Positions 1-20,230 of a stretch of 21,529 nucleotides of DNA are shown here, in pieces (position 1 is the stretch's first letter; each line of letters begins with the position of its first letter). The position numbers were made by a program, and so were the translations under genes. Source of the stretch: a virus; IMG/VR virus record IMGVR_UViG_3300045286_000115, positions 1 through 21,529 of that record; one strand, 5' to 3'. The notes under the pieces are model-generated. The model ran no database searches and was not told the DNA's origin. It saw only the letters and a list, made by a program, of their open reading frames with translations.

Positions 1-219
1 TCGACATCTGACGCTACGGGCGCGCGCATCGCGGCTCTTGGCGACGCCCACGTGTGCGACCTGACGCCCCGTCCTGCATTGCAGGTATGGGGCACGGTGG
101 CTTTCGCGCAGCCCATGACTGGCATTCACTGCTATCCCTGCCCCGTCTGCCAGGGCACTCGTCGGATGCTTGCTTGCACCATCTGCAACAACACTGGCCG
201 CTTTGCGGACTATCCATGA
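1..219 (+). CDS. small zinc-finger protein, 3' end (5' end outside window)
   Basis: An open frame runs from base 1 to TGA at 217-219 without an internal stop, giving 72 residues of a protein whose start lies left of the window. Its C-terminal third has two paired-cysteine knuckles, CPVCQG and CTICNNTG, 10 residues apart from the last Cys of the first to the first Cys of the second. This resembles half of a DnaJ-type CxxCxGxG zinc-binding region. The first in-frame ATG is at 115, but the frame is open further upstream, so I do not choose it as start. The stop overlaps the ATG of the aminotransferase gene (ATGA, 216-219), so the two are probably translationally coupled. Small phage proteins with such knuckles are often unassigned; no specific role can be given. 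It could be a stray open frame, but the clean knuckles and the ATGA junction argue for a real gene. Confidence 0.6.
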   Translation, partial: STSDATGARIAALGDAHVCDLTPRPALQVWGTVAFAQPMTGIHCYPCPVCQGTRRMLACTICNNTGRFADYP

Positions 220-1250
220 TCAAGGTTTTGATCCCCGATCTCCCGAGCCCGCAAGCGATTCTGCCGTACCTCGAAGAGATGCACAACAGTGCGCAATACG
301 TGAACGACTGCCCGCTCGTACAGCGCTTCGAGGGCGCTTTGTCCGAGATCACCGGCTACCCGGTTGCAGTGGTGTCGAATGGCACGGTCGCGCTCGAACT
401 CGCCTTGCGCGCCCTCGAACTGCCCCCGCGGTCGCTGGTGCTGGTGCCGTCCGTCACCTATGTTGCATCAGGGCAGGCGATCCGCAACGCCGGGCTCACG
501 CCCGTGCTGGCCGACGTCGACCCGATGACTTGGCTGCTGACGCCCGAGTACGCAGCGAACACTGTGCGAGATCTCGACATCCGGGCGGTCATGCCTGTTG
601 CTGCATTCGGCGCCCGGCTGCCGCTACGCGAGTGGGCTCGCTTCCAAGGTGAAACTGACGTAAAGGTGATCGTCGACGGCGCCGGCAGCCTGTACTCGCA
701 GCAAGAGCAGGTTCCGATCCCGATCTGCTACTCGCTACACGCGACCAAGTTCCTCGGGGTCGGTGAAGGTGGCTTCGTGACAGGGCCCGGTGACTTCGTG
801 AAGAAGGTTCACTCACTTGCGAACTTCGGCCCGTACGGCACGAACGGCAAGATGTCGGGCTTTCACGCTGCAGTGGGGCTTGCAGCCCTTGCCGACGAAT
901 TTCAGCTTGCAACGAAGCGCATAGCTACTTTCGTACAGGAAGCTGCTTACCGAAACAGCCTGCCGCCCTGGGTCGGCCAGCAGCAGGCATCTATCATCGG
1001 TCGCACGGTCATGCCGATCCTCGTGCCGCGCCGTCGTGACCTGATCGAGGCGGCACTGCTCGAAGCCGGCATCGAGACGAAGCGATGGTACTGCCCGCTG
1101 CTTCATGAACGTGAAGAGTTCGACTGCGACCTGCTGCCCCTGGTGCATGCCCGCATCATCGGTGAACACCTGATCGGACTGCCTTTCCATTCGCAACTAA
1201 AGGCGACTGACGTTCAGCACATCTGCGACACACTGCGAAGGTTCCCCTGA
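216..1250 (+). CDS. DegT/DnrJ/EryC1/StrS-family PLP-dependent sugar aminotransferase
   Basis: This 344-residue protein matches the fold-type I aminotransferases that convert keto groups of nucleotide-linked deoxysugars to amines, using PLP and usually glutamate. Visible marks are the phosphate-binding SNGTVALELAL segment near residues 64-74, the cofactor-pairing aspartate in DGAGS (D154), and the Schiff-base lysine in SLHATKFLGVGEGG (K178) followed by the typical GEGG turn. It is slightly shorter than the usual 360-400 residues. I chose ATG 216 because it overlaps the preceding stop (ATGA) and begins right before the family's N-terminal region; an in-frame ATG at 54 would add 54 residues unlike the family. 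The stop at 1248-1250 overlaps the next ATG (TGATG). The following dehydratase probably supplies the 4-keto-6-deoxy substrate, so the product could be a 4-amino-4,6-dideoxy or 3-amino-3,6-dideoxy sugar nucleotide. The exact position is not predictable here. Confidence 0.9.
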   Translation: MIKVLIPDLPSPQAILPYLEEMHNSAQYVNDCPLVQRFEGALSEITGYPVAVVSNGTVALELALRALELPPRSLVLVPSVTYVASGQAIRNAGLTPVLADVDPMTWLLTPEYAANTVRDLDIRAVMPVAAFGARLPLREWARFQGETDVKVIVDGAGSLYSQQEQVPIPICYSLHATKFLGVGEGGFVTGPGDFVKKVHSLANFGPYGTNGKMSGFHAAVGLAALADEFQLATKRIATFVQEAAYRNSLPPWVGQQQASIIGRTVMPILVPRRRDLIEAALLEAGIETKRWYCPLLHEREEFDCDLLPLVHARIIGEHLIGLPFHSQLKATDVQHICDTLRRFP

Positions 1251-2230
1251 TGCGCATCATTGTCACCGGCGGCTTCGGGTTCATCGGATCCGAGTTCATC
1301 CGCCTTGCCTCGAAGCACGGGCATACACTGCTGAACGTCGACGCCCGCACCTACGCTGCCCGGGTTGAAAACCTCGTGCCAATGCCGAAAGGCATGATCG
1401 GCACCGTGACCGCAGACATCTGCGAAGCGAACACGATCCACACGGTCTTCAGCAGTTTCAACCCGCACGCCCTGGTGAACTTCGCCGCTGAGACTCATGT
1501 CGGCCGCTCGATCGCCGACCGTGAGGCCTTCCTGCGCTCGAACGTGATCGGTGTCGACGTGCTGCTGAACGAAGCCTGCAGGTACATGCGCCTCGTGCGC
1601 AACCCCGATTTCAAGTTCCTGCAGGTGTCGACCGACGAGGTGTTCGGTTCACTCAAGGGCGAACAGCTGCCGTGGAGTGAGTCTGCACCTTACGCACCGA
1701 ACAACCCCTATGCTGCCAGCAAGGCGGCCGCCGACCACATGGTCCGGGCCTACGCTCACACCTTCAGGTTGCAAGTGGTGATCACGCACGGTTCAAACAC
1801 TTACGGGCCTGCGCAGCATCCCGAGAAGTTGATCCCGACTCTTACGCTGCAGGCTGCAGCCGGACAGCCCATGACGTTACACGGCGACGGCTTGAACATT
1901 CGCGACTGGCTGCACGTGTCGAACCACGCTGAAGGCATTCTGCGTGCGCTGGAGTTCGGCATGCCCGGCGCGACATACAACTTCGGCGGCGGGTGCGAGC
2001 GTACGAACCTCGACATCGCGCGCATGGTCTGGTCTGCACTGCAAGAGGGCGAACCGAAGATCTCGTTCATTGAAGACCGGCCCGGAAACGATTTGCGATA
2101 CGGGCTCGATTTCTCTGCTGCTGCGCGTGACCTTGCATGGTCGCCCGGCCCGCTAATCGAGACGCAGATTGCCGAAGTCGCTCGCTGGTACGCAAAGAAC
2201 CCTTACTACAAGGATGAGTATGGCTGCTGA
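1250..2230 (+). CDS. NAD-dependent NDP-glucose 4,6-dehydratase (RmlB-like extended SDR)
   Basis: The 326-residue product has the full extended short-chain dehydrogenase signature. The NAD-binding loop is TGGFGFIGS (residues 6-14). The conserved NFAAETHVGRSI segment follows (78-89), then the dehydratase-specific STDEVFGS (S127, T128, D129, E130), the catalytic pair Y154/K158 in YAASK, and NTYGP...PEKLIPT with GDGLNIRDWLHV further on. The TDE triad is the hallmark of enzymes that turn dTDP- or UDP-glucose into the 4-keto-6-deoxy derivative, which distinguishes it from plain 4-epimerases. It is somewhat shorter than cellular RmlB (about 350). The ATG overlaps the aminotransferase stop, and the last 11 bases overlap the glycosyltransferase start, so all three are one coupled unit. 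No nucleotidyltransferase to make dTDP-glucose is visible; it may lie to the left or come from the host. Confidence 0.92.
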   Translation: MRIIVTGGFGFIGSEFIRLASKHGHTLLNVDARTYAARVENLVPMPKGMIGTVTADICEANTIHTVFSSFNPHALVNFAAETHVGRSIADREAFLRSNVIGVDVLLNEACRYMRLVRNPDFKFLQVSTDEVFGSLKGEQLPWSESAPYAPNNPYAASKAAADHMVRAYAHTFRLQVVITHGSNTYGPAQHPEKLIPTLTLQAAAGQPMTLHGDGLNIRDWLHVSNHAEGILRALEFGMPGATYNFGGGCERTNLDIARMVWSALQEGEPKISFIEDRPGNDLRYGLDFSAAARDLAWSPGPLIETQIAEVARWYAKNPYYKDEYGC

Positions 2231-4085
2231 AGATCCGAAGAAACTGCGCGCCGTCATCCCGAACGTCGCCCTCGAAGTCTTTGAGAAGGCGGTCTACACA
2301 GGCGACTTGGAGCGCGCGGGCACTTTGATGCACGACATGATCGTGAAGCTGAAGACAGGCGCGGGCTTCATCCACTATTCAGCCGATCCTCGCATCGCTC
2401 AGGTGCTGTACACCCGAGCCTGTGCGGCAATCGTCGCGCTGCTGATGAATCCGAAGTTCGAGTTGTCATCGGTAGGCTTCAACACACTTGCGGCTGAGCA
2501 CGCCACGATCGATCTGCTGTTCCGCGCGAGCGCTTTCGGCACGAGCGACCACATGCTGCCGCTGGTGAGCAAGAACGAGAACGCGCCCTCGGGCGAATTG
2601 CAGTTCGAGGCCGGCCCGATGCTGGTGAAGTACCTTCTGACGCACTCGCTGCGCAGCGGCTTCGCCCTGAACTACCGGGTGACGTTCAGTCGCTCGCCTG
2701 ACGCAACCTTCGCGCTGTGGGCGGGCATGCTAGCTGCCCTGGTGACAACGAACGCCGTTGCGCAGAAGCGGCGCGAGGAACTGCTCGAAGTGCACGACGT
2801 CTTCGAGAACTGCCTGATCCCGACCGAATCCCTGTCGACGATCAGCGATGCCTTCATGTACACCTCGTACGGGCTGCGCGCCGACAAGCACGAGGCGAAG
2901 CGCACGATCTCTCGCCTGTTCGCCAAAACTCTGCGCCATCACAACGTGCCGCTGCCGACTCCCGAAGAACTGGCAGCCCGGTGGGATGCGCTGTGCGCTA
3001 GCTCGAAGCCCCTCATGGTCGTTGGACTCGAAGCGTTCGGCTCAGTGCATGCGATGTACCGCGTGTACGCCCCGATCATGCGGCAGCTTCGTCGCAAGTT
3101 CTACCTGATCGGAATCAGTCGCGAGTCGGAGATCGACGACGACGCGAAGCGCGAGTTCGACGAGTGGCGCGAGATCCCCGCGGCAGGCGCAGGCATCGCG
3201 GATATCACGCGCATGATCAACGAGATTGCGCCGATGGTGATGTACTACCCATCGATCGGCATGGCTGTGTGGTGGGTGGCGCTGTCGTCGGTCAGGCTGG
3301 CACCGCTGCAGATCATGACCTTGGGCCACCCCGCGACGAGCGGATCACCTGAGATCGACTTTGTGCTTGCCGAAGAGAACACAATCGGCGATCACGATCT
3401 GTTCGTCGAACCGATCCGCTACTGGTCGCTAGGCGCGAACCGGTTTGTCATGCGCGATGACGCCGATCTGCCCGAGCCGCGCATCCCGGAACTTCGTGAG
3501 GGCCCGGTCAAGGTCGCGATCCCTTCAATGGTCGCGAAGCTAAACTTCGACTTCCTCGAACTGCTGAAGAAGGCTGCCGACGAAACCGAGACGCCGATCG
3601 AGTATCACTTCTTTCCGAACCAGATCGGGCTCACGCTGTTCCAGACCGCAGCGGAGATCCGGGATGTGCTGCCGACGGCGCGGATCTACGAGCGATCGCA
3701 CTACAACCAGTACATGCGCCAGATGCGCGAGTGCGACTTCATGGTCGTCACCTACCCTTTCGGGAACACGAACTCGACTCTCGACGCCTTGCACCTGGGC
3801 CTGCCCGTGCTGACGCTACGCGGCAACGAATGCCACTCGCGGTACGACTCGGTCATGCTCCAGAAGGCAGGCCTGCCTGAATTTCTGATCGCTGACACAC
3901 CCGGGGTGCTGATCGAGAAGATCGCTGTGCTTGCCGACAATGAAGTGTACCGATGGACCCTCGCAGAACAGGTGCGATCGGTTGACCTGCAGGCTGTGTT
4001 CTACGGCGACCCACCGAACCCGACCGAGATCGTCGACTTGGTCGACGACCTACTGCTCGAAGTCGCCCCCGGAGTGCTCGAATGA
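2220..4085 (+). CDS. HMW1C/NGT-like GT41 glycosyltransferase (putative cytoplasmic N-glycosyltransferase)
   Basis: This 621-residue protein resembles the soluble HMW1C/NGT branch of family GT41, which transfers hexose from a UDP-sugar to Asn in N-X-S/T. The first half is mostly helical, as in the family's N-terminal all-alpha domain. The GT-B catalytic part then shows a SVHAMYR block (H277), APLQIMTLGHPAT (H370), MVAKLN (K440), YPFGNTNSTLDA (F514 to D522), LGLPVLTLRGNECHSRYD and KAGLPEFLIA. As I recall, H277, K441 and D525 of the Actinobacillus pleuropneumoniae NGT are sugar-nucleotide or catalytic residues, and the positions here match within a few residues. There is no TPR array and no TM segment, so cytoplasmic action is expected. 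ATG 2220 is preferred because AAGGA lies 5 bases upstream, inside the end of the dehydratase gene; ATG 2214 is possible. The sugar-nucleotide genes just upstream suggest a matched donor. The acceptor is unknown. Confidence 0.88.
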   Translation: MAAEDPKKLRAVIPNVALEVFEKAVYTGDLERAGTLMHDMIVKLKTGAGFIHYSADPRIAQVLYTRACAAIVALLMNPKFELSSVGFNTLAAEHATIDLLFRASAFGTSDHMLPLVSKNENAPSGELQFEAGPMLVKYLLTHSLRSGFALNYRVTFSRSPDATFALWAGMLAALVTTNAVAQKRREELLEVHDVFENCLIPTESLSTISDAFMYTSYGLRADKHEAKRTISRLFAKTLRHHNVPLPTPEELAARWDALCASSKPLMVVGLEAFGSVHAMYRVYAPIMRQLRRKFYLIGISRESEIDDDAKREFDEWREIPAAGAGIADITRMINEIAPMVMYYPSIGMAVWWVALSSVRLAPLQIMTLGHPATSGSPEIDFVLAEENTIGDHDLFVEPIRYWSLGANRFVMRDDADLPEPRIPELREGPVKVAIPSMVAKLNFDFLELLKKAADETETPIEYHFFPNQIGLTLFQTAAEIRDVLPTARIYERSHYNQYMRQMRECDFMVVTYPFGNTNSTLDALHLGLPVLTLRGNECHSRYDSVMLQKAGLPEFLIADTPGVLIEKIAVLADNEVYRWTLAEQVRSVDLQAVFYGDPPNPTEIVDLVDDLLLEVAPGVLE

Positions 4086-6392: not shown

Positions 6393-9300
6393 CTATCGCT
6401 TGATTAAGCTGACATGCGTCAAAGGTGCTGAGTCAGCGTTTGCATAGTAGTACAAGCCCACATCAGGATGTTGCCCTTTCAGCAATGCACCGGCCCTGTA
6501 CTGGCTTCCTGCTAACACACTGAACCTTGATGACAAAGTGAAGTGAGCCCGGCTGTTTGGCAATCCTTGTCGTAAATCTTGAGTTGGGGTGTTAGTTGAA
6601 TTCAAGGTGAACACATCGTCTCCAGCAGCAGTAAGGTCAGCAGTAAGGCAACAGCCGGTTCCGATCAGACCAGCCCCCCACTCTGTACCCCCGCCCGAAC
6701 CGTGAGCGTCTAGCTCGACAGTAACTTCAGCTACACAGTCAACCGCTGGCGTGAATACGATACCGCCCAAAATGCTTCGGCTGATGACTGCCTTGGGGTA
6801 GGTGCCTGAGGATGTTGAAGGCGTAAGGACTTCAGTTGCTGCGTTTGCTCCGATCTGCGCTGTTGCAACAGAGTCAAGCTGAGCAAGCTGCCCAGTCGAC
6901 AGATTCGCTGCGCTGACCCACGAGCCGCTGACTCTCAGGTACAGCACAACTGGCGAACTTGAAGTATCAGCCCATACGTCGCCGTCGACTGCACTCTCTG
7001 GCGCACTGTTCTGCCAGTACATGCGGTTGACCGTAGCGCCTTCCGCTGCATTCACAGGCTGGAAGTACAACCAGTCGACCCACACCGACGTCGTCGGGGG
7101 GCTCGCAGACATGTTATTCGCGCCCCAGGTCCACACAACTGCATCTGTCGACAACCAGTTCGGCGTGAAGTCGGCGAGCTGGAGGGTTTGGTAAGACGTC
7201 GTCAGCTTGCTGATGAAGTTCTGGCTGTAAAGTGTGGTAGCCTGGGTTTCGTTGTAGATGTTGAACGGCGCTGCAGTCGGCGAGCCGACCTTCTTCGCAC
7301 GCACGAAGACCTTGTACACCTTGCCCTGCACGAAGCCGGGCACCCGCTGCGATGCGGGGCCACCCGCTGCAGGCGTGAGGTAGTTGTATGCCGTCCAACC
7401 GTCCCATACCCGCAACGAACTGCCGTCCGACGCAGCAGTGTCGCTCACGATGTCAGATTGAGTGCCGTCGTTCCCTGCGTCGTCATTGCCGAAATTGCGC
7501 AGCACCACGCTGATTGCAGTCGCGGGCACATGGGTGATCAACGGCCAGTCGGCTCTCGTAGCTGCGTCTGCGATCCGAGGCGTGTACGACCCGGTCAGCA
7601 GGTCCGACAGCGCAGGTTCTGTGCCGTCGCACAGGAACACCATCGGCGAGGCGAAGATCATCGTGTCACCGACATGCGAACCGTAGTACTGGTAAGCGCG
7701 GGTACTGATGCTGCTGATCCCCGCTTTCCAACACCAATTGACTCCACTGTGAGCCAGCGCACCGGTAACACAGTCGAACATCCCCGCCCCGTTGGAGCTA
7801 AGACCCGTGCTGCCCGCCGGAAAGATGTACCCGACCATGAGGTACCACTGGTCTGCAGTGGGGGGCCTACTGCCGCCTACAAAGTAAGGGTTGTCTTCGA
7901 CTGTCGAAGTGTTCAGATTGCAGACATGCCCCGTCGAGTTGCTCGGACCCCAGTAAGCTTGACCGTCACCCGATAAGTTTTGGACAAAGCACGCGAAAAG
8001 ATACGTCTTCGTAGTGTCAATTTGGAGGTTATTTCCTTCTGCCCCATCGCTGACCCATCCGCCTTGTGCGCCGCCTGCTGACGTCGATACAGCCTTCCAG
8101 ACCGACCCGACCGTCACCCCGTCAGGCATCACTGCAACGTCAAAACTGTTCGTCGCGCCGCCTAGCGGGGACCATCGCTGAGTTGCCCCCGGCGCCCACC
8201 ATGAAGAGTCGATGTAAGGCTTGATGCTAGCGTCCTGCATCAGCACCCACGTACCGTTCTGACGAACGTAGGGGCGGTTGCCATGCGCAGTGTCGAACCA
8301 CAGCGACCCGCTGATTACGAAGTGCTGAGTAGCAGGGTCGACTGCCTGCGAATACACAATCGCCCCGGGGTTGACTGACAGCGCGGCCATCGCACCTGTC
8401 ACGGCGTAGGTGTACTCAGTGACATCGGCAAGACTCTGTTCTGCCCCGCCGTAGACATTGAAGCTGGTGAACTTGAGATGGACAGTCTTGCCGACATAGC
8501 TTGTCGGGTCGAGATCTGCGCTCTTGAAGATCTGACTGTCACACCGCACGAAGAGATCGCTCGTGGAGTGGGCCTGAGTGCCATCAGTACCGTACGCCCC
8601 GCGCACGAGGCCGGTCAGCGTGTACTGCTGCGCGCTCGTAAGCGTGGCAGTTTGGTACGCAAGGTATTCTTGATGCGCACCACCGATGTAACACAGCGTC
8701 ACCAGCGCGGAAGCATCGGTCGCGCTCCCGCTCGTAAGAATCGCTTTGTTGCCGTTCAGAGCGACAGGCAACGACCCGCCCGAGATCGCACCACTGAGCA
8801 CGCCGTGACGCGAGGGGGCGTTCAGTTCGCCCATCTTGCGGTAGTTCGAGCCGTCGAGGCTCACCCACACGCTGCAACCGCCCCAGTATTGACTTGTGCC
8901 CAGGCAAGCCGCCCAGATCTGCAAGCCTGTACCGGTCAGCGGCGCGGGCGCCTCGAAGATCGTCGGGACGTTGATCGAACCCGGGTCGACGTTGCGGTCG
9001 TGAATGAAGCCCTGCCCTGATTGAGTCGGATACGCCGTCGCGGTCGCACTGCCAATCGGGAAGTCTTCCGCTGTGATCGTCATCGCGCCGTCCGTATCTT
9101 CCTCGATCGAGGTGATCCTCACCGGATACTTGTTCAGGCCCTGCTCAAGATCGGTCAGCGTGACGATGTCCATCGGTTCGAGCATGGCAAACGCCCACGA
9201 CAACCGGAACGTGTAAGTCTTGACGACGTTCAGCGAGCGCTGCAGCAGTATCTGCACGATCGTCCGGGCAACTGACGCATCGCAGACCCAGGGCGCGGTC

Positions 9301-10595
9301 AGGATCTCGGCAGACCGAAGACCGTAGGTGTCAATGTCGGCGCCATCCTTGGCTTCGGCGATCTCTTTGGCGTAGTTGCCGGTGAAGAGTTTGCTCGGTG
9401 CATCCCAGGCCCCGCGGTTGCACCACTCGATGCGAAAGTGGTTGTACCGGTCCGCGGCAGCCTTGTCTGCAATCTGGATCGGGTTCTCGTTGTCGAGGAA
9501 GTGGTTGTCGTCGAGGTCGTACAGCGGCGTGGTGTTCGCCGTGTAGGTTCGACCGTTAGCGGTCAGGGACTTGTCGCCGTAAGGTACGATCCGCAACTGA
9601 TTGCCCGACCACACCCCGGCTGAGTTCGTCAGCTTGAGGCACTGCGCCACGAGATCAGCCGCCTTCTGTTGCGACGTGATCGCCGGGCTCAAGAGCAGGC
9701 CTGAGGCGAGGCAGTAGTCAGAGTAGGTCGTCAGATCCGCGAGCCGCGAAGCCGGGAACTGCGCGCCACCGCCGGCCCCGATCAGCAGGTCAGTCAGAAA
9801 CGAAGCGCCGTCAACATCGGGTAGTGACGTGCTCGAACCATAAGCCAACCGCCCGACCACCTCGAAGTTGTGGTTTTCAAGCTGCGCAGCGTTGCCTAGG
9901 CGGTACTGCTGACCCGCCACGTAGCACAAGCCCGGGTACCGCAACTGCTCGTTCGAGGGGGCGATCGAAGTGAGAGGGCCCCATAGCGGCTGATCGATCG
10001 CACCAGGGGCGAAACTAAGCCCTAGCTCGTCGAGGCTTTGCTGCCCTGTCGAGCCGCTAAGCCACTGATACGTGATCAGCAACTGCTGCCCTGTGAAGTC
10101 CGCCGAGAACGTGATCTTGCTTGACGCCGAATCGAAGGTGAAGTCGACCCCCTGCGCAAGGGGAGGTAACGGGTAGCCTTGCGAAACACCGATGATCTGG
10201 CGGATCGTGTGCAGCGGGGTGAACTGCCGCGATCCTGAAACCGTGTAGTACTCGGTCAGGATGTTGTAAGTCGAGGGGTCGACCCCTCCTTTCGATGCGG
10301 CTTGCCCTTTCCACACCCGCGGAATCGAACTGACGAGCCCGGCGCACACAGCCATGATCAAGTCAGCAGCGTAGGTGTAGGTCGTATCGACCATGTTCGG
10401 GCTGCCGCCCTTGCCGCCGCCCTGATTGGCAGTCTCGTGCGCAGTTGCCGAGAAGTTGCCATACCACAGCAGGTTCCCGGCGATCCGGTTCACGCCCCAG
10501 ACAAGAGGGATGCAGACCCCGTAAGCCGAACTTTGGATCTGGAAAGCTTCCAGCTTGTCTTGACTGTGCGAAAGAGACTGGCTACCCCCACCCAT
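6393..10595 (-). CDS. tail-tip / host-specificity protein (GTA gp15 or phage J-like)
   Basis: This 1400-residue protein ends the tail operon, where siphoviruses encode the central fibre or tip attachment protein. The first 550 residues look like the tip hub: IPLVWGVNRIAGNLLWYGNF near residues 30-48, a YTYAADLIMAVCAGLV strand, and the long Phage-tail_3-like block with DGASFLTDLLIGAG and YSDYCLASGLLLSP (about 260-305), reaching LEPMDIVTLTD. The rest is a chain of beta-rich, Gly/Ser/Thr-rich modules. Two copies of a wrapper-like motif are visible: FDTAHGNRPYVRQNGTWV near 770 and DGDVWADTSSSPVVLYL with SGSWV near 1205. These are likely carbohydrate- or receptor-binding parts. The start ATG lies 14 bases inside the peptidase gene end. 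The C-terminal coding bases are clearly lower in GC than the N-terminal part, which suggests module exchange. Confidence 0.88.
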   Translation of the reverse strand: MGGGSQSLSHSQDKLEAFQIQSSAYGVCIPLVWGVNRIAGNLLWYGNFSATAHETANQGGGKGGSPNMVDTTYTYAADLIMAVCAGLVSSIPRVWKGQAASKGGVDPSTYNILTEYYTVSGSRQFTPLHTIRQIIGVSQGYPLPPLAQGVDFTFDSASSKITFSADFTGQQLLITYQWLSGSTGQQSLDELGLSFAPGAIDQPLWGPLTSIAPSNEQLRYPGLCYVAGQQYRLGNAAQLENHNFEVVGRLAYGSSTSLPDVDGASFLTDLLIGAGGGAQFPASRLADLTTYSDYCLASGLLLSPAITSQQKAADLVAQCLKLTNSAGVWSGNQLRIVPYGDKSLTANGRTYTANTTPLYDLDDNHFLDNENPIQIADKAAADRYNHFRIEWCNRGAWDAPSKLFTGNYAKEIAEAKDGADIDTYGLRSAEILTAPWVCDASVARTIVQILLQRSLNVVKTYTFRLSWAFAMLEPMDIVTLTDLEQGLNKYPVRITSIEEDTDGAMTITAEDFPIGSATATAYPTQSGQGFIHDRNVDPGSINVPTIFEAPAPLTGTGLQIWAACLGTSQYWGGCSVWVSLDGSNYRKMGELNAPSRHGVLSGAISGGSLPVALNGNKAILTSGSATDASALVTLCYIGGAHQEYLAYQTATLTSAQQYTLTGLVRGAYGTDGTQAHSTSDLFVRCDSQIFKSADLDPTSYVGKTVHLKFTSFNVYGGAEQSLADVTEYTYAVTGAMAALSVNPGAIVYSQAVDPATQHFVISGSLWFDTAHGNRPYVRQNGTWVLMQDASIKPYIDSSWWAPGATQRWSPLGGATNSFDVAVMPDGVTVGSVWKAVSTSAGGAQGGWVSDGAEGNNLQIDTTKTYLFACFVQNLSGDGQAYWGPSNSTGHVCNLNTSTVEDNPYFVGGSRPPTADQWYLMVGYIFPAGSTGLSSNGAGMFDCVTGALAHSGVNWCWKAGISSISTRAYQYYGSHVGDTMIFASPMVFLCDGTEPALSDLLTGSYTPRIADAATRADWPLITHVPATAISVVLRNFGNDDAGNDGTQSDIVSDTAASDGSSLRVWDGWTAYNYLTPAAGGPASQRVPGFVQGKVYKVFVRAKKVGSPTAAPFNIYNETQATTLYSQNFISKLTTSYQTLQLADFTPNWLSTDAVVWTWGANNMSASPPTTSVWVDWLYFQPVNAAEGATVNRMYWQNSAPESAVDGDVWADTSSSPVVLYLRVSGSWVSAANLSTGQLAQLDSVATAQIGANAATEVLTPSTSSGTYPKAVISRSILGGIVFTPAVDCVAEVTVELDAHGSGGGTEWGAGLIGTGCCLTADLTAAGDDVFTLNSTNTPTQDLRQGLPNSRAHFTLSSRFSVLAGSQYRAGALLKGQHPDVGLYYYANADSAPLTHVSLIKR

Positions 10596-15871: not shown

Positions 15872-16603
15872 TCACTCCTCCAGCGACAGCGACCCGATCG
15901 CGTTCGCCGAGTCGGCGAAGGCCGCGAAGTCGAACTCGGGGATCACGAAGTCTTCCAGCTTGGTCGCGATCGTCAGCTTCGACGACATGCACGCGTTCAG
16001 CACCATCGTGAGTTGCTTGCTCTGGAAGGTCGTCGTCAGCACCGCCGAGAACTGCGGGGCGGACCCGAGCAACTGGTTCGTGATGCTGATCTTCTTGCCG
16101 TTCGAGGCATCGGTCCAGTTGTAGGACACCGCCACGGCGACGTTGTTCTGCGACGTGTTGAACGAGTAGACCCCTGTCGTCTCGTTGCAGGTGTACTGCT
16201 GGCCGACCGGGCCGTTCGCCACGCGCGTAAAGACCGTGTTGTCGGCCGCCAGCACCACGCCCAGGTCGGTGATGGCCCCGTTGTGCGTGACCGTCACGTT
16301 GCCGCTCGACACGGTCTGCGCTTCCGCAACCGCCGTCTTCACCTCGCCCGTCGCCGGGTTCGACAGGCCGAAGAACAGGTCGTTGAAGGCCTGGGCGTTG
16401 AACTGGGCGAACTTCGCCTTGCCCGAGATCTTCCCGGTGCCACGACCGAGCGCGATCGGAAACTGGTACTGCCCGTGCAGTTCCTTGACCGAGAAGGACA
16501 TATCGATCGACACGTCCTGCAAGCCGCCGAAGCGCACCGGAGTGGCGGGTGCGGTCAGATTGCGGCCATAGAGCACACCCGAACCGAAGCTGTATTGCGA
16601 CAT
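15872..16603 (-). CDS. major tail tube protein
   Basis: The 243-residue product is beta-rich with few charged helices. It has an N-terminal FGSGVLYGRNLT, a VSIDMSFSVKELHGQYQFPI strand (residues 31-50), a GRGTGKISGKAKFAQF segment, and a central Thr/Asn/Val-rich region. This is the usual composition and size of siphovirus tube proteins, and the gene lies between the terminator and chaperone genes. The conserved tube motif LHGQ...FPIALG...GKI is seen in related phage tails. Five N-X-S/T sites occur (N15, N102, N140, N149, N162). AGGAG is 6 bases before the ATG and overlaps the TAG stop of the terminator gene. Confidence 0.85.
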   Translation of the reverse strand: MSQYSFGSGVLYGRNLTAPATPVRFGGLQDVSIDMSFSVKELHGQYQFPIALGRGTGKISGKAKFAQFNAQAFNDLFFGLSNPATGEVKTAVAEAQTVSSGNVTVTHNGAITDLGVVLAADNTVFTRVANGPVGQQYTCNETTGVYSFNTSQNNVAVAVSYNWTDASNGKKISITNQLLGSAPQFSAVLTTTFQSKQLTMVLNACMSSKLTIATKLEDFVIPEFDFAAFADSANAIGSLSLEE

Positions 16604-16612
16604 GACTTTCTC

Positions 16613-17065
16613 CTAAGTCGGGACCACGACCACGAGGGGGATGATCGCAACCTCTTGGTCCCCGAGGTCCCCCTGAAAGATCTGAATCGGGCCTTCAATC
16701 GCACAGTGCGACACGAGGCCCCCGAGAGTACACGCATTGTTCGACAGATCGTCGACGACGAGCGATGCTTCCACCGCATCGATCAACGGGTTCAGCACCT
16801 GGCTCGGCACAATGTCAGGGTCGTTGTTGGCGCCGGTGTGCACGTACAGCCACAACTTGATGTGCAGAGTCCACTTCGTCGGCAGGCCGCGCACACGCAT
16901 CGCTTCTTCCGACTCTTGCGTCATCAGTAGCGCCGGCTGATCTTCGGGCGCGACACCGTCCCAGGTCGTGACCTTCCGCGTGGCAGTCTTGAACGCCCGC
17001 TCGTCGTCAGTCGTCAGCCCCCCGAAGAAACCGAAGACCGCAGCGTAGATGTCCTCGCGGATCAT
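16613..17065 (-). CDS. tail terminator / tail completion protein
   Basis: The 150-residue product has the plan of gpU/DUF-type tail terminators: an N-terminal helix (MIREDIYAAVFGFFGGLT), a short TRKVTTWDGVAPEDQPALLM segment in which an Asp-Gly-Val turn precedes a strand, THIKLWLYVHTG, and a C-terminal strand ending IPLVVVVPT. These rings stop tail tube growth and later contact the head. It sits between the gp10-like protein and the tube protein, the standard place. Its ATG overlaps the preceding stop (ATGA, 17062-17065). Assignment rests on order, size and secondary-structure pattern more than on a single motif. Confidence 0.75.
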   Translation of the reverse strand: MIREDIYAAVFGFFGGLTTDDERAFKTATRKVTTWDGVAPEDQPALLMTQESEEAMRVRGLPTKWTLHIKLWLYVHTGANNDPDIVPSQVLNPLIDAVEASLVVDDLSNNACTLGGLVSHCAIEGPIQIFQGDLGDQEVAIIPLVVVVPT

Positions 17066-17613
17066 TGAAGCTGCCCCTTGACTGCTCCGATGATCTGCGA
17101 GCGGATCCGTTCGCGGAACTCACGCAGCGTCGACCGCAGATAGCTGCGCTCGGGCATGTTCATCACGCGGCTGTGCGCCCGTACGTTGATCTCGCCTGGG
17201 CCGCCGCCTGCCTTGCGGTACGAGCCGCGGATCTCGATCTTCTCGCCAGCCTTGTTCGTTCGGTAACGGGCGAGGGCCATCTGACTCTGCGAGCGGCGCA
17301 CGTAAGCAGGTACGCTGACGGTGCCGTTGAACCCGTACTCGTGCACACCGGCGTACTCGACGTTCGTGCCGATCGTCGCCCGGACCGAGTCGCCCTCGAC
17401 TTCGACCTTGCGGTTGATCGAGCGCCGCAGAGTGCCGGTGCGTACGTGCAGCACCTGCCCCGTCAGCTTCGTCTCTTTGACAGCGCCCTGCACCTCAATC
17501 GACAGGCGCGTGATGACCCGGATCATGGCTTCGCGAAGCTGAGCCCACCTGCCGCGCATGCGCGCCTGCAGGATCTCGTCGCGGACATCGATGTAGAAGA
17601 GTTCGTCGCTCAT
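17062..17613 (-). CDS. HK97 gp10-like head-tail joining / neck protein
   Basis: The 183-residue product resembles the HK97 gp10 family of neck or tail-completion proteins. It shows HVRTGTLRRSINRKVEV (near residue 57), TIGTNVEYAGVHEYGF (near 80-95) and a C-terminal ERSYLRSTLREF block, all in the family order. The start is taken as ATG 17613 because it overlaps the connector stop (ATGA, 17610-17613), like its neighbours; an in-frame GTG at 17622 would add three residues. Between the connector and the tail terminator, it likely forms the ring that joins the filled head to the tail. Confidence 0.85.
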   Translation of the reverse strand: MSDELFYIDVRDEILQARMRGRWAQLREAMIRVITRLSIEVQGAVKETKLTGQVLHVRTGTLRRSINRKVEVEGDSVRATIGTNVEYAGVHEYGFNGTVSVPAYVRRSQSQMALARYRTNKAGEKIEIRGSYRKAGGGPGEINVRAHSRVMNMPERSYLRSTLREFRERIRSQIIGAVKGQLQ

Positions 17614-18386
17614 ACGACCCACCGACGGCGATAGGGCGACAACATCTCTTTGACCGAGTCGGTCATGCCTTTCGACGTGTAGCTGATCGACTCGCCTGCG
17701 AGGTTCTTGCTGCTGATGCCCAGGTTGTCACGTTGCTTCAGGTCAAGGCCCACCATCTCGATACAGGCCTGCTCGATTGCGGGCGGCACGCATTGATAGG
17801 TCAGTTCGACCTGACGCCCGGAGTCAGCCGGATTGAACTCGTACGCGCCTTCGTCGAAGGTGAACTGACCGGCTGCCGGGCTCGCCATGACGAGCGTCAG
17901 GGCGGCCCCCGTGTCGACGAAGATCGACTGCAGCGGCACCAGCGGGCGGCCCGTGTCGGTCGGTTTCAGCACGGGCTTGGTGCCTGCTGGAATGAACTCG
18001 GTGTCGGTACCGACATAGCCCGACTTCCACGACACGAAGACGTTACGGCGGCCTTTCGGGAAGACCGAGCCGATCAGATAGACCGCATTCTCGTCAAAGG
18101 TATAGCCTGCTGCCACGCCATCGGTCGAGAAGGGAATGTCAGTGTTCAGCACCTTGACCGCGGACACTGTCAGGGCAGGTGTCTCGGGCAGCGCCAGCAC
18201 TGAAGTGCCGCTGCCATTGCATGGGTAGAGGGTCCGATCGACGCCGAAGATGTCTCGCGACAGAAACGTCACGATCGTCTGCGACTCACGCGAGATCAGG
18301 GCCCTGATCAGGTTGTCCTGATTAGGCTTGTCGATCGCAAGGTACGACTTGACGTTCGACAGGGTCGTCAGGTCGCGATCGGACAT
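17610..18386 (-). CDS. head-tail connector protein (HK97 gp6-like adaptor)
   Basis: The 258-residue product starts with the connector-type helical segment LSNVKSYLAIDKPNQDNLIR and ALISRESQTIVTFLSRDIFG, which binds below the portal. A beta-rich middle follows (about residues 55-190), then a C-terminal helix with PPAIEQACIEMVGLDLKQRD before MLSPYRRRWV. That final helix-then-SPYRR pattern is common in phage head-tail adaptors. It is longer than HK97 gp6 itself (about 110), the difference being the beta-rich insertion of unknown role. Downstream overlap with the gp10-like gene is by ATGA. Ten bases separate it from the small gene upstream. Confidence 0.8.
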   Translation of the reverse strand: MSDRDLTTLSNVKSYLAIDKPNQDNLIRALISRESQTIVTFLSRDIFGVDRTLYPCNGSGTSVLALPETPALTVSAVKVLNTDIPFSTDGVAAGYTFDENAVYLIGSVFPKGRRNVFVSWKSGYVGTDTEFIPAGTKPVLKPTDTGRPLVPLQSIFVDTGAALTLVMASPAAGQFTFDEGAYEFNPADSGRQVELTYQCVPPAIEQACIEMVGLDLKQRDNLGISSKNLAGESISYTSKGMTDSVKEMLSPYRRRWVV

Positions 18387-18396
18387 GGCCGGCGCC

Positions 18397-18624
18397 TTAC
18401 TTCTTCCCGGCCATAGTCGGGATCTTCAGGTCGCTCTTCGTCTCGACTTCCTCGAACGGCGTGATCGACAGACCGTGCGGTTTCAGTTCCTCGACGAGGT
18501 TGTCCGGCACCTGCACGCTGCGGTCGTTGCCTTCGGCCGCGAGCACAAAGCCGCGCACCGACACGACCGGCGCCTTGTCGGGCGGGAAGTACATGCGCGT
18601 GAACGCTTGCTGAAACGGATTCAC
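18397..18624 (-). CDS. hypothetical protein between capsid and connector, 75 aa
   Basis: I do not recognise a family. The 75-residue product has no TM segment. It reads MNPFQQAFTRMYFPPDKAPV, then a short beta-like VVSVRGFVLAA and an acidic middle, and ends in lysines (MAGKK). It begins with GTG at 18624; AGGAG lies 7 bases upstream, a clear ribosome site that decides the start. The position after the capsid gene suits a decoration, head-completion or small connector-associated protein, but nothing in the sequence proves this. It is the first gene after a likely terminator hairpin. Confidence 0.7.
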   Translation of the reverse strand: MNPFQQAFTRMYFPPDKAPVVSVRGFVLAAEGNDRSVQVPDNLVEELKPHGLSITPFEEVETKSDLKIPTMAGKK

Positions 18625-18647
18625 TGTGACACTCCTATGTGGTTGGG

Positions 18648-18686
18648 CAAAAAGGCCGGCCCCCGGTGGAGTTATGTAAGGCCGGC
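18648..18686 (-). terminator. possible intrinsic terminator after the major capsid gene
   Basis: On the minus strand, GCCGGCC (18686-18680) and GGCCGGC (18661-18655) can form a seven-pair GC stem around an 18-base loop, followed after one C by TTTTT (18653-18649). This is the arrangement of a Rho-independent terminator, with a loop longer than ideal. It lies 23 bases after the capsid stop, in an operon otherwise nearly free of gaps. It may attenuate downstream transcription so that capsid is made in excess. GCCGGC is self-complementary, so other pairings exist. Confidence 0.45.
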
Positions 18687-18709
18687 AACGTCACGACAAC
18701 TGCCCTAGA

Positions 18710-20230
18710 TCAGCCGTTGCCGATGTTCGAGATGATGCCGAGCGACGGCGGGAAGTAGTGCTGCAGCACACCGTCTTCGTAGATGCCGTACTGGTACTTG
18801 CGGCTGACCTGCGGCCACTCGATCTGGTAGTACTCGCGCCGCATGCGCATCTGCATCACGTTCGTCACGTTCGACAGCGGGTAGGGCAGCCGGTTCGTGG
18901 TGAACAGGATCGTGCCGGGCGGCATGTTCGGGTGCAGCATTACCTGCAGTTCCTGGGCACCGTTCATGCCGAACTTGTTCAGGTAGGCCCGCACCATGAT
19001 GCCGCCGCCGACCGCCTTCTGGTCGGTCTGGAAGACGAAGCGCTGCGCCGACGTCGAGGACCCGTTCAGGATCTTCAGGCCGATGTTCTGCATCTCCTGC
19101 GAGTTCACCCACATCGTGTCGGGCGACAGGCGGTAGTTGTCCCAGAAGGACTGCAGGGCCGCGTCGATCTCCTTGATGCCGCCTGCACCATCGGACGTCA
19201 GCGGAGTGCCAGCACCAGCATTGCCGGTCGCCATCAGCTTGACGTACGCGCCCAGGCTCGACTGAGCCGCGAAAGTCAGCAGCCCGTCGAAGGCGAGGCT
19301 GTTCTTCGAGTAGTCGGCCTGGGCCAGCCCCTGGAAGTTGCCGCCGGGCTTGCTGGCGTTGCCAGTGGCCGCCGCCGTGATCACCACGCTGTTGATCGTC
19401 GTGATCGCGCCGAGCGTCAGGTTGCCGGTGTTGGCGCCCCAGTACCATGCATACCCGTAGGCGCCTGCAATGGCAGTCACGGTGGCCGAAATCGAGCCCA
19501 GGTTGCCCGAACCCGCGGCAACTGCGATGTTCGCCTGCGCCGAGAAATTCGACATGCCGCCGTTGATCGTCTCGTTGCCATCGCTGCCGGCGTTCACGCG
19601 AGTAACGGTCTGCGGCACGCCGTTCGTCAGCGATGCGTTGCGGTAGCCCTCGAACGTGAGCGCCACCACGCCGACACCGTAGTTCGCAGCGTTGACGAGC
19701 GTGCCGCCGGTGTTGGCGGTCGACAGGGTCGGGGTCGCAGCGGTCGACAGCGTCACAGACGTGTTGCCGCCCAGGATGACCACTTCTTCGGCGATCATCA
19801 TCGCGCGCAACAGGCCCTCCACTGCGAGGGCCTTGACGTCATCGAAGCCTTCAGCAGCATAGTCCGCCTCGAAGGTGACGTAGTCCTCCAGCCCCAGGCC
19901 CTTGTAGGCGGCGAGGTAGTCGGCAGTCGACGTCGCGATCACACCGCCGCGGTTGCCGCCGCTGACGTAGGGCGAGGTGTTGCCAGTGTTGACGCCGGTG
20001 ACAGCGCGCCAGTTGGCCTGAATGCCGCCCTTGCCGGACACGCGAGGGATGCTGTTGCGCAGCGGCGTGATGACCGGGTACAGCTTCTTCGCCGGCCCTT
20101 CGAGGTCGTAGGCAGTAATGCCCGAGATGGCGGATGCGGACTGCGTCCACGCCTTGGCGAGGCCTTCGTCGGCCTTCGACATGGCCGTCTTCAGCAGATC
20201 GAGCGTTTCTTGAGTGGTTTGCGGGTTCAT
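18710..20230 (-). CDS. major capsid protein (HK97-like fold) with a large inserted domain
   Basis: The 506-residue product has the marks of an HK97-like capsid protein. An N-terminal helical part is followed by TPLRNSIPRVSGKGGIQANW (about 56-74), then LEDYVTFEADYAAEGFDDVK (114-133), a long helix ending EEVVILGG, and the C-terminal strands MRREYYQIEWPQVSRKYQYG and LQHYFPPSLGIISNI. It is longer than the usual 300-400 residues. Residues about 158-290 are an Ala/Gly/Thr/Asn-rich, beta-like stretch (with GAYGYAWYWG) that looks like an inserted Ig/fibronectin-type surface domain. Nine N-X-S/T sites are present (N84, N156, N198, N219, N228, N270, N291, N389, N454), five of them in that region. AGGAG is 7 bases before ATG 20230. 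No cleavage site can be assigned. Confidence 0.9.
   Translation of the reverse strand: MNPQTTQETLDLLKTAMSKADEGLAKAWTQSASAISGITAYDLEGPAKKLYPVITPLRNSIPRVSGKGGIQANWRAVTGVNTGNTSPYVSGGNRGGVIATSTADYLAAYKGLGLEDYVTFEADYAAEGFDDVKALAVEGLLRAMMIAEEVVILGGNTSVTLSTAATPTLSTANTGGTLVNAANYGVGVVALTFEGYRNASLTNGVPQTVTRVNAGSDGNETINGGMSNFSAQANIAVAAGSGNLGSISATVTAIAGAYGYAWYWGANTGNLTLGAITTINSVVITAAATGNASKPGGNFQGLAQADYSKNSLAFDGLLTFAAQSSLGAYVKLMATGNAGAGTPLTSDGAGGIKEIDAALQSFWDNYRLSPDTMWVNSQEMQNIGLKILNGSSTSAQRFVFQTDQKAVGGGIMVRAYLNKFGMNGAQELQVMLHPNMPPGTILFTTNRLPYPLSNVTNVMQMRMRREYYQIEWPQVSRKYQYGIYEDGVLQHYFPPSLGIISNIGNG

Follow-up and report, generated by a model that had tools for sequence, protein, structure and literature searches.

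The virus record IMGVR_UViG_3300045286_000115 of IMG/VR covers 21.5 kb, a fragment of the genome of a tailed phage, and by the window we mean its whole length of 21,529 nucleotides. At its left end, on the plus strand, lie genes for a sugar aminotransferase, an RmlB-like dehydratase and a homologue of the HMW1C-like N-glycosyltransferases (NGTs); on the minus strand lie the structural genes, among them those of the major capsid protein and the tail tube protein (Table 1). A preliminary description had put these two proteins forward, as the window's carriers of N-x-S/T triplets (sequons), as possible substrates of the sugar cassette. Our comparison of relatives shows that in the phage clade carrying the enzyme the sequons at tube N140, mostly also at tube N149, and at capsid N270 are near-invariant, and that nearly all enzyme-less relatives are without them. 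We therefore retain the proposal for two or three particular sites, while the total count gives it no support.

The comparison covered 21 capsids of the clade against 61 others and 17 tubes of the clade against 34 others, with identical proteins counted once (L041 and L075 share a capsid sequence) and with four capsids of less than 40% identity (L042, L056, L057, L058) and four tubes (L048, L053, L054, L084) dropped beforehand. The tube N140 sequon is present in 16 of the 17 clade tubes and in 2 of the 34 outside. Its triplets within the clade are NET (10), NES (4), NTS, NAS and NAA (1 each), so that in all but the last the sequon is retained while its second residue varies among E, T and A and its third between S and T. 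The Asn-Glu positions are for the most part inserted, being filled in all 17 clade tubes and in 12 and 9 of the 34 others. The site reads C-N-E-[TS]-T, most clade members having Thr at +3. Among records of known enzyme status, 9/9 that have the enzyme show the sequon, as does 1/13 tubes of long records that lack it. Sequons are also found at N149 in 12/17 clade tubes against 2/34 outside, and near tube position 108 in 9/17 against 0/34. For the capsid, the N270 sequon occurs in 19 of 21 clade members, always as NLT, and in 1 of 61 others, where the column reads SEV, NEL, AEK, SEL and similar. Eight outside rows do have Asn there, one of them with S/T at +2, as against 19/19 in the clade; residue 266 is filled in 20/21 clade capsids and 10/61 others. 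By known status, the N270 sequon is present in 8/9 records with the enzyme and 1/16 without.

Other capsid sequons follow the enzyme less closely or not at all. N454 (17/21 against 12/61) has a weaker link, and sequons at N234, N243 and N306 are confined to part of the clade (10, 9 and 9 of 21, against 0/61). N156 (17/21 against 41/61) and N198 (8/21 against 37/61) have no link to the transferase, and N382 (3/21 against 44/61) is rarer with it; thus for many sequons there is no relation to the enzyme, or a lower frequency in its presence. The question raised in the preliminary description, whether relatives without the transferase have sequons just as often, has a divided answer: N156 and N198 are as common or commoner there, while N270, N140 and N149 track the enzyme. 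The capsid range N198-N291 that it singled out for conservation has at one end N198, which is unlinked, and at the other N291, where the sequon occurs in just 4/21 clade capsids.

The clade itself was delimited from the capsid. A capsid profile scan of viral contigs, of which we took the best 80 of more than 578 matching stretches, gave together with earlier loci 85 distinct capsids beyond that of the window, and the whole records behind them (50 + 36) were searched with a three-row enzyme profile, with 6 matches; absence of the enzyme was counted as meaningful only for records of at least 30 kb. The enzyme is present in all six capsid-found records of that length inside the clade (G001, G004, G008, G015, G018, G035). 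With the same profile it was found in none of 14 capsid-bearing IMG/VR records of at least 30 kb outside it, nor in any of five isolate phages with a related capsid (two of Brevundimonas, two of Arthrobacter, one of Thermoanaerobacterium). Two further records, G011 and G013:C797, were located through the enzyme and also contain the capsid. A maximum-likelihood tree built from 83 capsids puts all nine enzyme-bearing rows (the window and these eight) in a clade of 21 rows with a Shimodaira-Hasegawa-like approximate likelihood ratio test (SH-aLRT) value of 99. L019 and L032, incomplete there, were left out of the enzyme alignment and tree. In that tree the 13 enzymes from phages group together, apart from 16 cellular relatives (SH-aLRT 99), and G011 and G035 are basal both there and among the capsids. 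Presence in all long clade records, with matching basal members, argues for long joint inheritance of enzyme and capsid. Moreover, the DegT aminotransferase adjoins the transferase in 8/9 enzyme-bearing records (it was not found in G013) and in 0/7 enzyme-less ones, and together these comparisons show that the predicted enzyme and its adjacent aminotransferase are fixed in a single phage clade. Two queries (E 1e-5; E 0.01) found the enzyme in none of 50,697 isolate-phage records; a single-sequence scan of IMG/VR gave no match, and the three-row profile instead found 8 loci.

G013 (L018, L039, L042) deserves separate mention: a contig in a betaproteobacterial metagenome-assembled genome is a phage of the transferase clade, which would point to a betaproteobacterial host, and a second contig of the same bin has a distant capsid (38%) without the sites. 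The latter, L042, comes from the assembly that also contains G013:C797 and served only as outgroup in the capsid tree.

Table 1. Coordinates of the genes, domains and sites considered here, numbered along the window.
Feature	Position	Strand	Basis or remark
HMW1C-like GT41 glycosyltransferase homologue, 638 aa (amino acids)	2169..4085	+	Pfam, phmmer, NCBIfam; true start perhaps slightly downstream
Tail tube protein with Ig-like insert, 243 aa	15872..16603	-	phrog_8234; structure model
Ig-like insert of tube, residues 84-171	16091..16354	-	Model strands; predicted local distance difference test score (pLDDT) ~94 across residues 91-160
Tube sequon N140-E-T	16178..16186	-	Clade comparison of tubes
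Tube sequon N149-T-S	16151..16159	-	Clade comparison of tubes
Major capsid protein, HK97 fold with beta-domain insert, 506 aa	18710..20230	-	phrog_13692; structure model
Beta-rich capsid insert, residues ~208-284	19379..19609	-	DSSP of model; probably an added domain
Capsid sequon N270-L-T	19415..19423	-	Clade comparison of capsids
Capsid sequon N454-V-T, weaker link to transferase	18863..18871	-	Clade comparison of capsids
DegT/DnrJ/EryC1 sugar aminotransferase	54..1250	+	Pfam PF01041, E 7e-45; open reading frame (ORF) opens near record end, start uncertain
dTDP-glucose 4,6-dehydratase-like (RmlB-like)	1250..2230	+	TIGR01181 342 bits (cut-off 365); phmmer 1g1a, E 6e-72
Tail protein (phage-tail_3), 1,400 aa, 10 sequons	6393..10595	-	Domain/family matches, sequon count

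How close is the enzyme to known NGTs? Pfam assigns both expected domains to the product of ORF 2169-4085, HMW1C_N at 36.9 bits (cut-off 27) and Glyco_transf_41 at 27.4 bits (cut-off 25), and phmmer aligns it to the solved NGT 3q3e with E 6.8e-65; its NCBIfam NGTferase score of 264.5 bits lies below the cut-off of 1000. Judged by these scores the predicted protein is a distant NGT homologue and not an equivalog, and it is phage-encoded, the window being one of nine phage records in which it accompanies this capsid. The nucleotide-sugar part has the conserved Lys, Asn and Asp (K457, N535 and D539). According to PMC10507012, AaNGT reads the Ser/Thr at +2 through Arg177 and Asp215, both R177A and D215A are inactive, and Thr is favoured at +3. 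The equivalent of D215 is D227, which is Asp in all 13 aligned phage enzymes and, AaNGT aside, in none of the 15 cellular relatives that have a residue there (L020-L031, L033-L036). Neither of the sequon-reading residues of AaNGT is kept in these HMW1C-like proteins, which come from large sulfur bacteria, Planctomycetota and other groups, apart from an Arg at the R177 column in L028, L033 and L035; such cellular relatives may have other substrates.

While particular sites track the enzyme, the number of sequons is a different matter. The preliminary description had counted by hand 9 in the 506 residues of the capsid and 5 in the 243 of the tube, and our recount is identical (capsid N84, 156, 198, 219, 228, 270, 291, 389, 454; tube N15, 102, 140, 149, 162), as is its figure of about 6 in the remaining structural proteins (6 in 2,814 residues over eleven proteins). 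The contrast depends, however, on the rows chosen: the 1,400-residue tail protein, which had been omitted, has 10 sequons where composition predicts 10.5. Shuffling gives 5.7 expected for the capsid (p 0.10) and 3.2 for the tube (p 0.195), so that the suggested shuffled-sequence test finds an excess only when both are shuffled jointly (14 observed, 8.8 expected, p 0.044). This excess is not specific to sequons, because the reversed motif [ST]-x-N is equally common, with 10 in the capsid and 7 in the tube. Mean sequon numbers are higher in the transferase clade than in other relatives (capsid 8.2 against 5.1; tube 3.8 against 1.8), and so are reversed motifs (8.4 against 4.9; 6.8 against 2.1); column shuffles inside the clade give z 2.7 for N-x-[ST] and 2.9 for [ST]-x-N. 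Capsid and tube are Asn-rich and the sequons follow, as the earlier caution about composition had anticipated. The observation thus holds as a count and fails as an enrichment, and we rejected sequon number as a sign of selection.

No dedicated sequon-rich substrate stood out among all proteins of eight enzyme-bearing records (top z 2.7, in many tests), and record-wide sequon densities per 100 residues overlap, at 0.34-0.63 with the enzyme and 0.23-0.58 without, the gene calls in this search being greedy ORF picks.

A more specific measure is the gain of motifs in aligned columns. Among 3,800 motifs of the form a-x-[bc] scored for clade-gained columns, a threshold-free score puts N-x-[ST] in 6th place, as against 482nd, 870th and 652nd in three control clades of the same trees; at all six thresholds used it is within the top 2.1%. 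The thresholds of a first motif test (0.7/0.1) were set after the sites had been seen, with N149 (12/17 = 0.706) barely passing, and at 0.9/0.05 N-x-[ST] is level with 78 other motifs. When sequon density is compared between enzyme-bearing and other genomes for seven proteins, only the tube (p 0.019) and the capsid (p 0.037) differ, and the five others are unchanged. All these clade comparisons represent one evolutionary split, and the Fisher values ignore the shared origin.

Structure models place the sites on turns and loops. The tube model has the siphophage tail tube fold, its best match being 8ygm, the tail tube of SPR, at Z 12.9 (219 residues, 4.5 A), with 8xkn at Z 12.8; the capsid model has the HK97 fold, with Z 15-20 against many HK97-type capsids, including the SPO1 capsid 9vel (Z 20.2) and HK97 2fs3 (Z 18.1) over ~250-265 residues. 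Tube N140 closes strand 136-140 and forms with residues 141-144 the turn ahead of strand 145-148, in a beta-hairpin, and N149 directly follows that strand, all in an Ig-like insert modelled at pLDDT ~94. In the capsid, N270 is part of the loop that separates strand 259-266 from strand 272-277 (pLDDT ~91-97).

Three further observations concern the tube. In four relatives its Ig-like insert (residues 93-167) is weakly similar to part of the connector gene (17610-18386; E 1e-5 to 6e-4), and one decorating domain may be common to tube and connector. Another match of the tube model is 7qog_B, a portal-region chain of crAss001 (Z 9.0, 71 residues). The SPR tail tube is, in several solved complexes, the trigger of the DSR2 defence protein.

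We somewhat favour the reading that the phage's HMW1C-like enzyme glycosylates its own capsid and tail tube at a few dedicated sites. Our confidence is only moderate because there is one evolutionary origin and because the sequon-reading arginine is missing: the R177 column holds Leu, Met or Thr in 13/13 phage enzymes, in a gappy part of the alignment, and H214 of AaNGT is not retained either. With the Asp kept and the Arg replaced, the enzyme is a distant homologue that may read N-x-S/T in a changed manner. Several other points weigh against this reading. Any clade-wide feature of single origin would co-vary with the enzyme. Total Asn is also higher in the clade (capsid 35.5 against 24.8; tube 18.8 against 11.6), and T-x-N motifs rank as high as sequons there, so part of the signal is that turns are richer in Asn and Thr overall. 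Virus records are fragmentary, which makes absence of the enzyme uncertain. Two long enzyme-less records have a sequon (L086, tube NES; L088, capsid NET), and G035 has the enzyme without the capsid N270 sequon. Finally, the exposure of the loops bearing the sites and the outward orientation of the inserts are presumed from related phages.

Could the sites simply have hitch-hiked? Asn/Thr-rich turns might have been fixed once, for structural reasons, in the ancestor that acquired the enzyme, with the sequons as by-products. The single origin in capsid and enzyme trees fits this, as do the accompanying rise of the reversed motif and of total Asn, and sequon totals near the composition expectation. 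However, the tube N140 sequon survives changes at both of its other positions, at N270 the +2 Thr stands in place of Leu, Val, Lys or Glu-type neighbours, and the five other compared proteins show no rise in Asn. We consider hitch-hiking a possible but unlikely explanation. It is less likely still that the enzyme acts elsewhere, on a host surface protein or within an envelope-altering sugar pathway, and that the virion is not its target. Whole sugar-synthesis steps in the cassette, as in envelope-modifying phages, and the missing arginine would suit such a role, but HMW1C-type enzymes have proteins as substrates and work in the cytoplasm, and acquisition of the enzyme coincides with the virion sites. 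The earlier form of the idea, in which capsid and tube are sequon-rich as wholes and are densely coated with glycans at all 14 sites, can appeal to the counts of 9 and 5 and the joint shuffle (p 0.044). Given a reversed motif that is equally common, and capsid sequons at N156, N198 and N382 that are no rarer where the enzyme is absent, we regard it as highly improbable.

The genes beside the enzyme bear on which sugar would be attached in the favoured scheme of a few dedicated sites. An RmlB-like dehydratase is present in 4/9 enzyme-bearing records. Scanning 20 neighbouring proteins with Pfam (5 without a match) gave five hexapeptide acyltransferases (G004, G008, G013, G018, G035), two of them with a PglD_N domain (G004, G035), three AMP-binding enzymes (G001, G008, G018), three Rieske oxygenases (G004, G013, G015), two ketoacyl synthase III-like proteins (G004, G013), a methyltransferase (G001) and a deaminase (G035). 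From these matches the neighbourhood looks like one that makes a modified 4-amino-4,6-dideoxyhexose in the manner of the bacillosamine or anthrose pathways. Such acyl-sugar genes around the enzyme in relatives (L184, L152, L154, L147, L144, L159, L161) are unusual for phages.

In the scheme we favour, the phage would make its own HMW1C-like cytoplasmic NGT, which during infection would attach a single sugar to tube N140 and N149 and capsid N270 in the host cytoplasm. Attachment before or during assembly would lead to hundreds of modified copies per virion, and the remaining sequons would be background. The sugar may be a 4-amino- or 4-acylamino-6-deoxyhexose, made or altered by the 4,6-dehydratase, the DegT aminotransferase and the hexapeptide acyltransferases of relatives, or else glucose, and the benefit may be shielding or an altered surface chemistry. 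A more specific version, to which we give tentative standing at best, is an N-linked coat of 4-(acyl)amino-4,6-dideoxyhexose on capsid and tube (N140, N270), made by phage-borne dehydratase, aminotransferase and acyltransferase and transferred from a dTDP- or UDP-sugar donor by an HMW1C-type enzyme with an altered sequon pocket. Such a coat could hide newly synthesised tube and capsid proteins from intracellular sensors that recognise them, and change the virion surface. The idea of hiding arises because the protein that DSR2 senses, the SPR tail tube, is the tube's best fold match. If the favoured scheme is right, a bacterial virus would have a self-contained, cytoplasmic, one-enzyme N-glycosylation system with acceptor sites readable from the genome, and the NGT family involved would probably use an unusual donor. 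In practical terms the outcome is two named residues, together with two sets of phages to compare, one that has the enzyme and one that lacks it.

Few cases of phages that glycosylate proteins are known, among them mycobacteriophages with a glycan link that is probably of O-type, and we found no paper on a phage-encoded HMW1C-type enzyme in the literature searched, which left out most subscription journals. The sugar genes recall the Pgl and anthrose-type pathways (PglF/PglE/PglD; RmlB, DesI/VioA) in their 4,6-dehydratase, DegT aminotransferase and, in G004 and G035, PglD_N acyltransferase; unlike the Pgl type, the phage set is without a lipid-linked carrier or oligosaccharyltransferase, STT3 (PF02516) being absent from the window. 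With the HMW1C-like NGTs of family GT41 (ApNGT 3q3e, AaNGT 8p0o-8p0q, Haemophilus HMW1C) the predicted enzyme shares full-length homology, the HMW1C_N and GT41 domains, the nucleotide-sugar Lys, Asn and Asp by alignment, and the D215 equivalent. Known members modify secreted adhesins with UDP-glucose as donor, whereas the enzyme of the window is phage-borne, scores below the equivalog level, has R177 and H214 replaced and adjoins amino-sugar genes. Glycosylation of mycobacteriophage virions was reportedly described by Freeman et al. in 2023 (Cell Host Microbe). According to PMC11600133 and PMC12619734, those phages likewise encode glycosyltransferases, with capsid and tail tube as targets, the two proteins that are the predicted targets here. 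While the mycobacteriophage glycans sit, in the latter source, at the C-termini of capsid and tube, the candidate sites in the window lie on internal loops of inserted domains and would be served by an N-linked type of enzyme.

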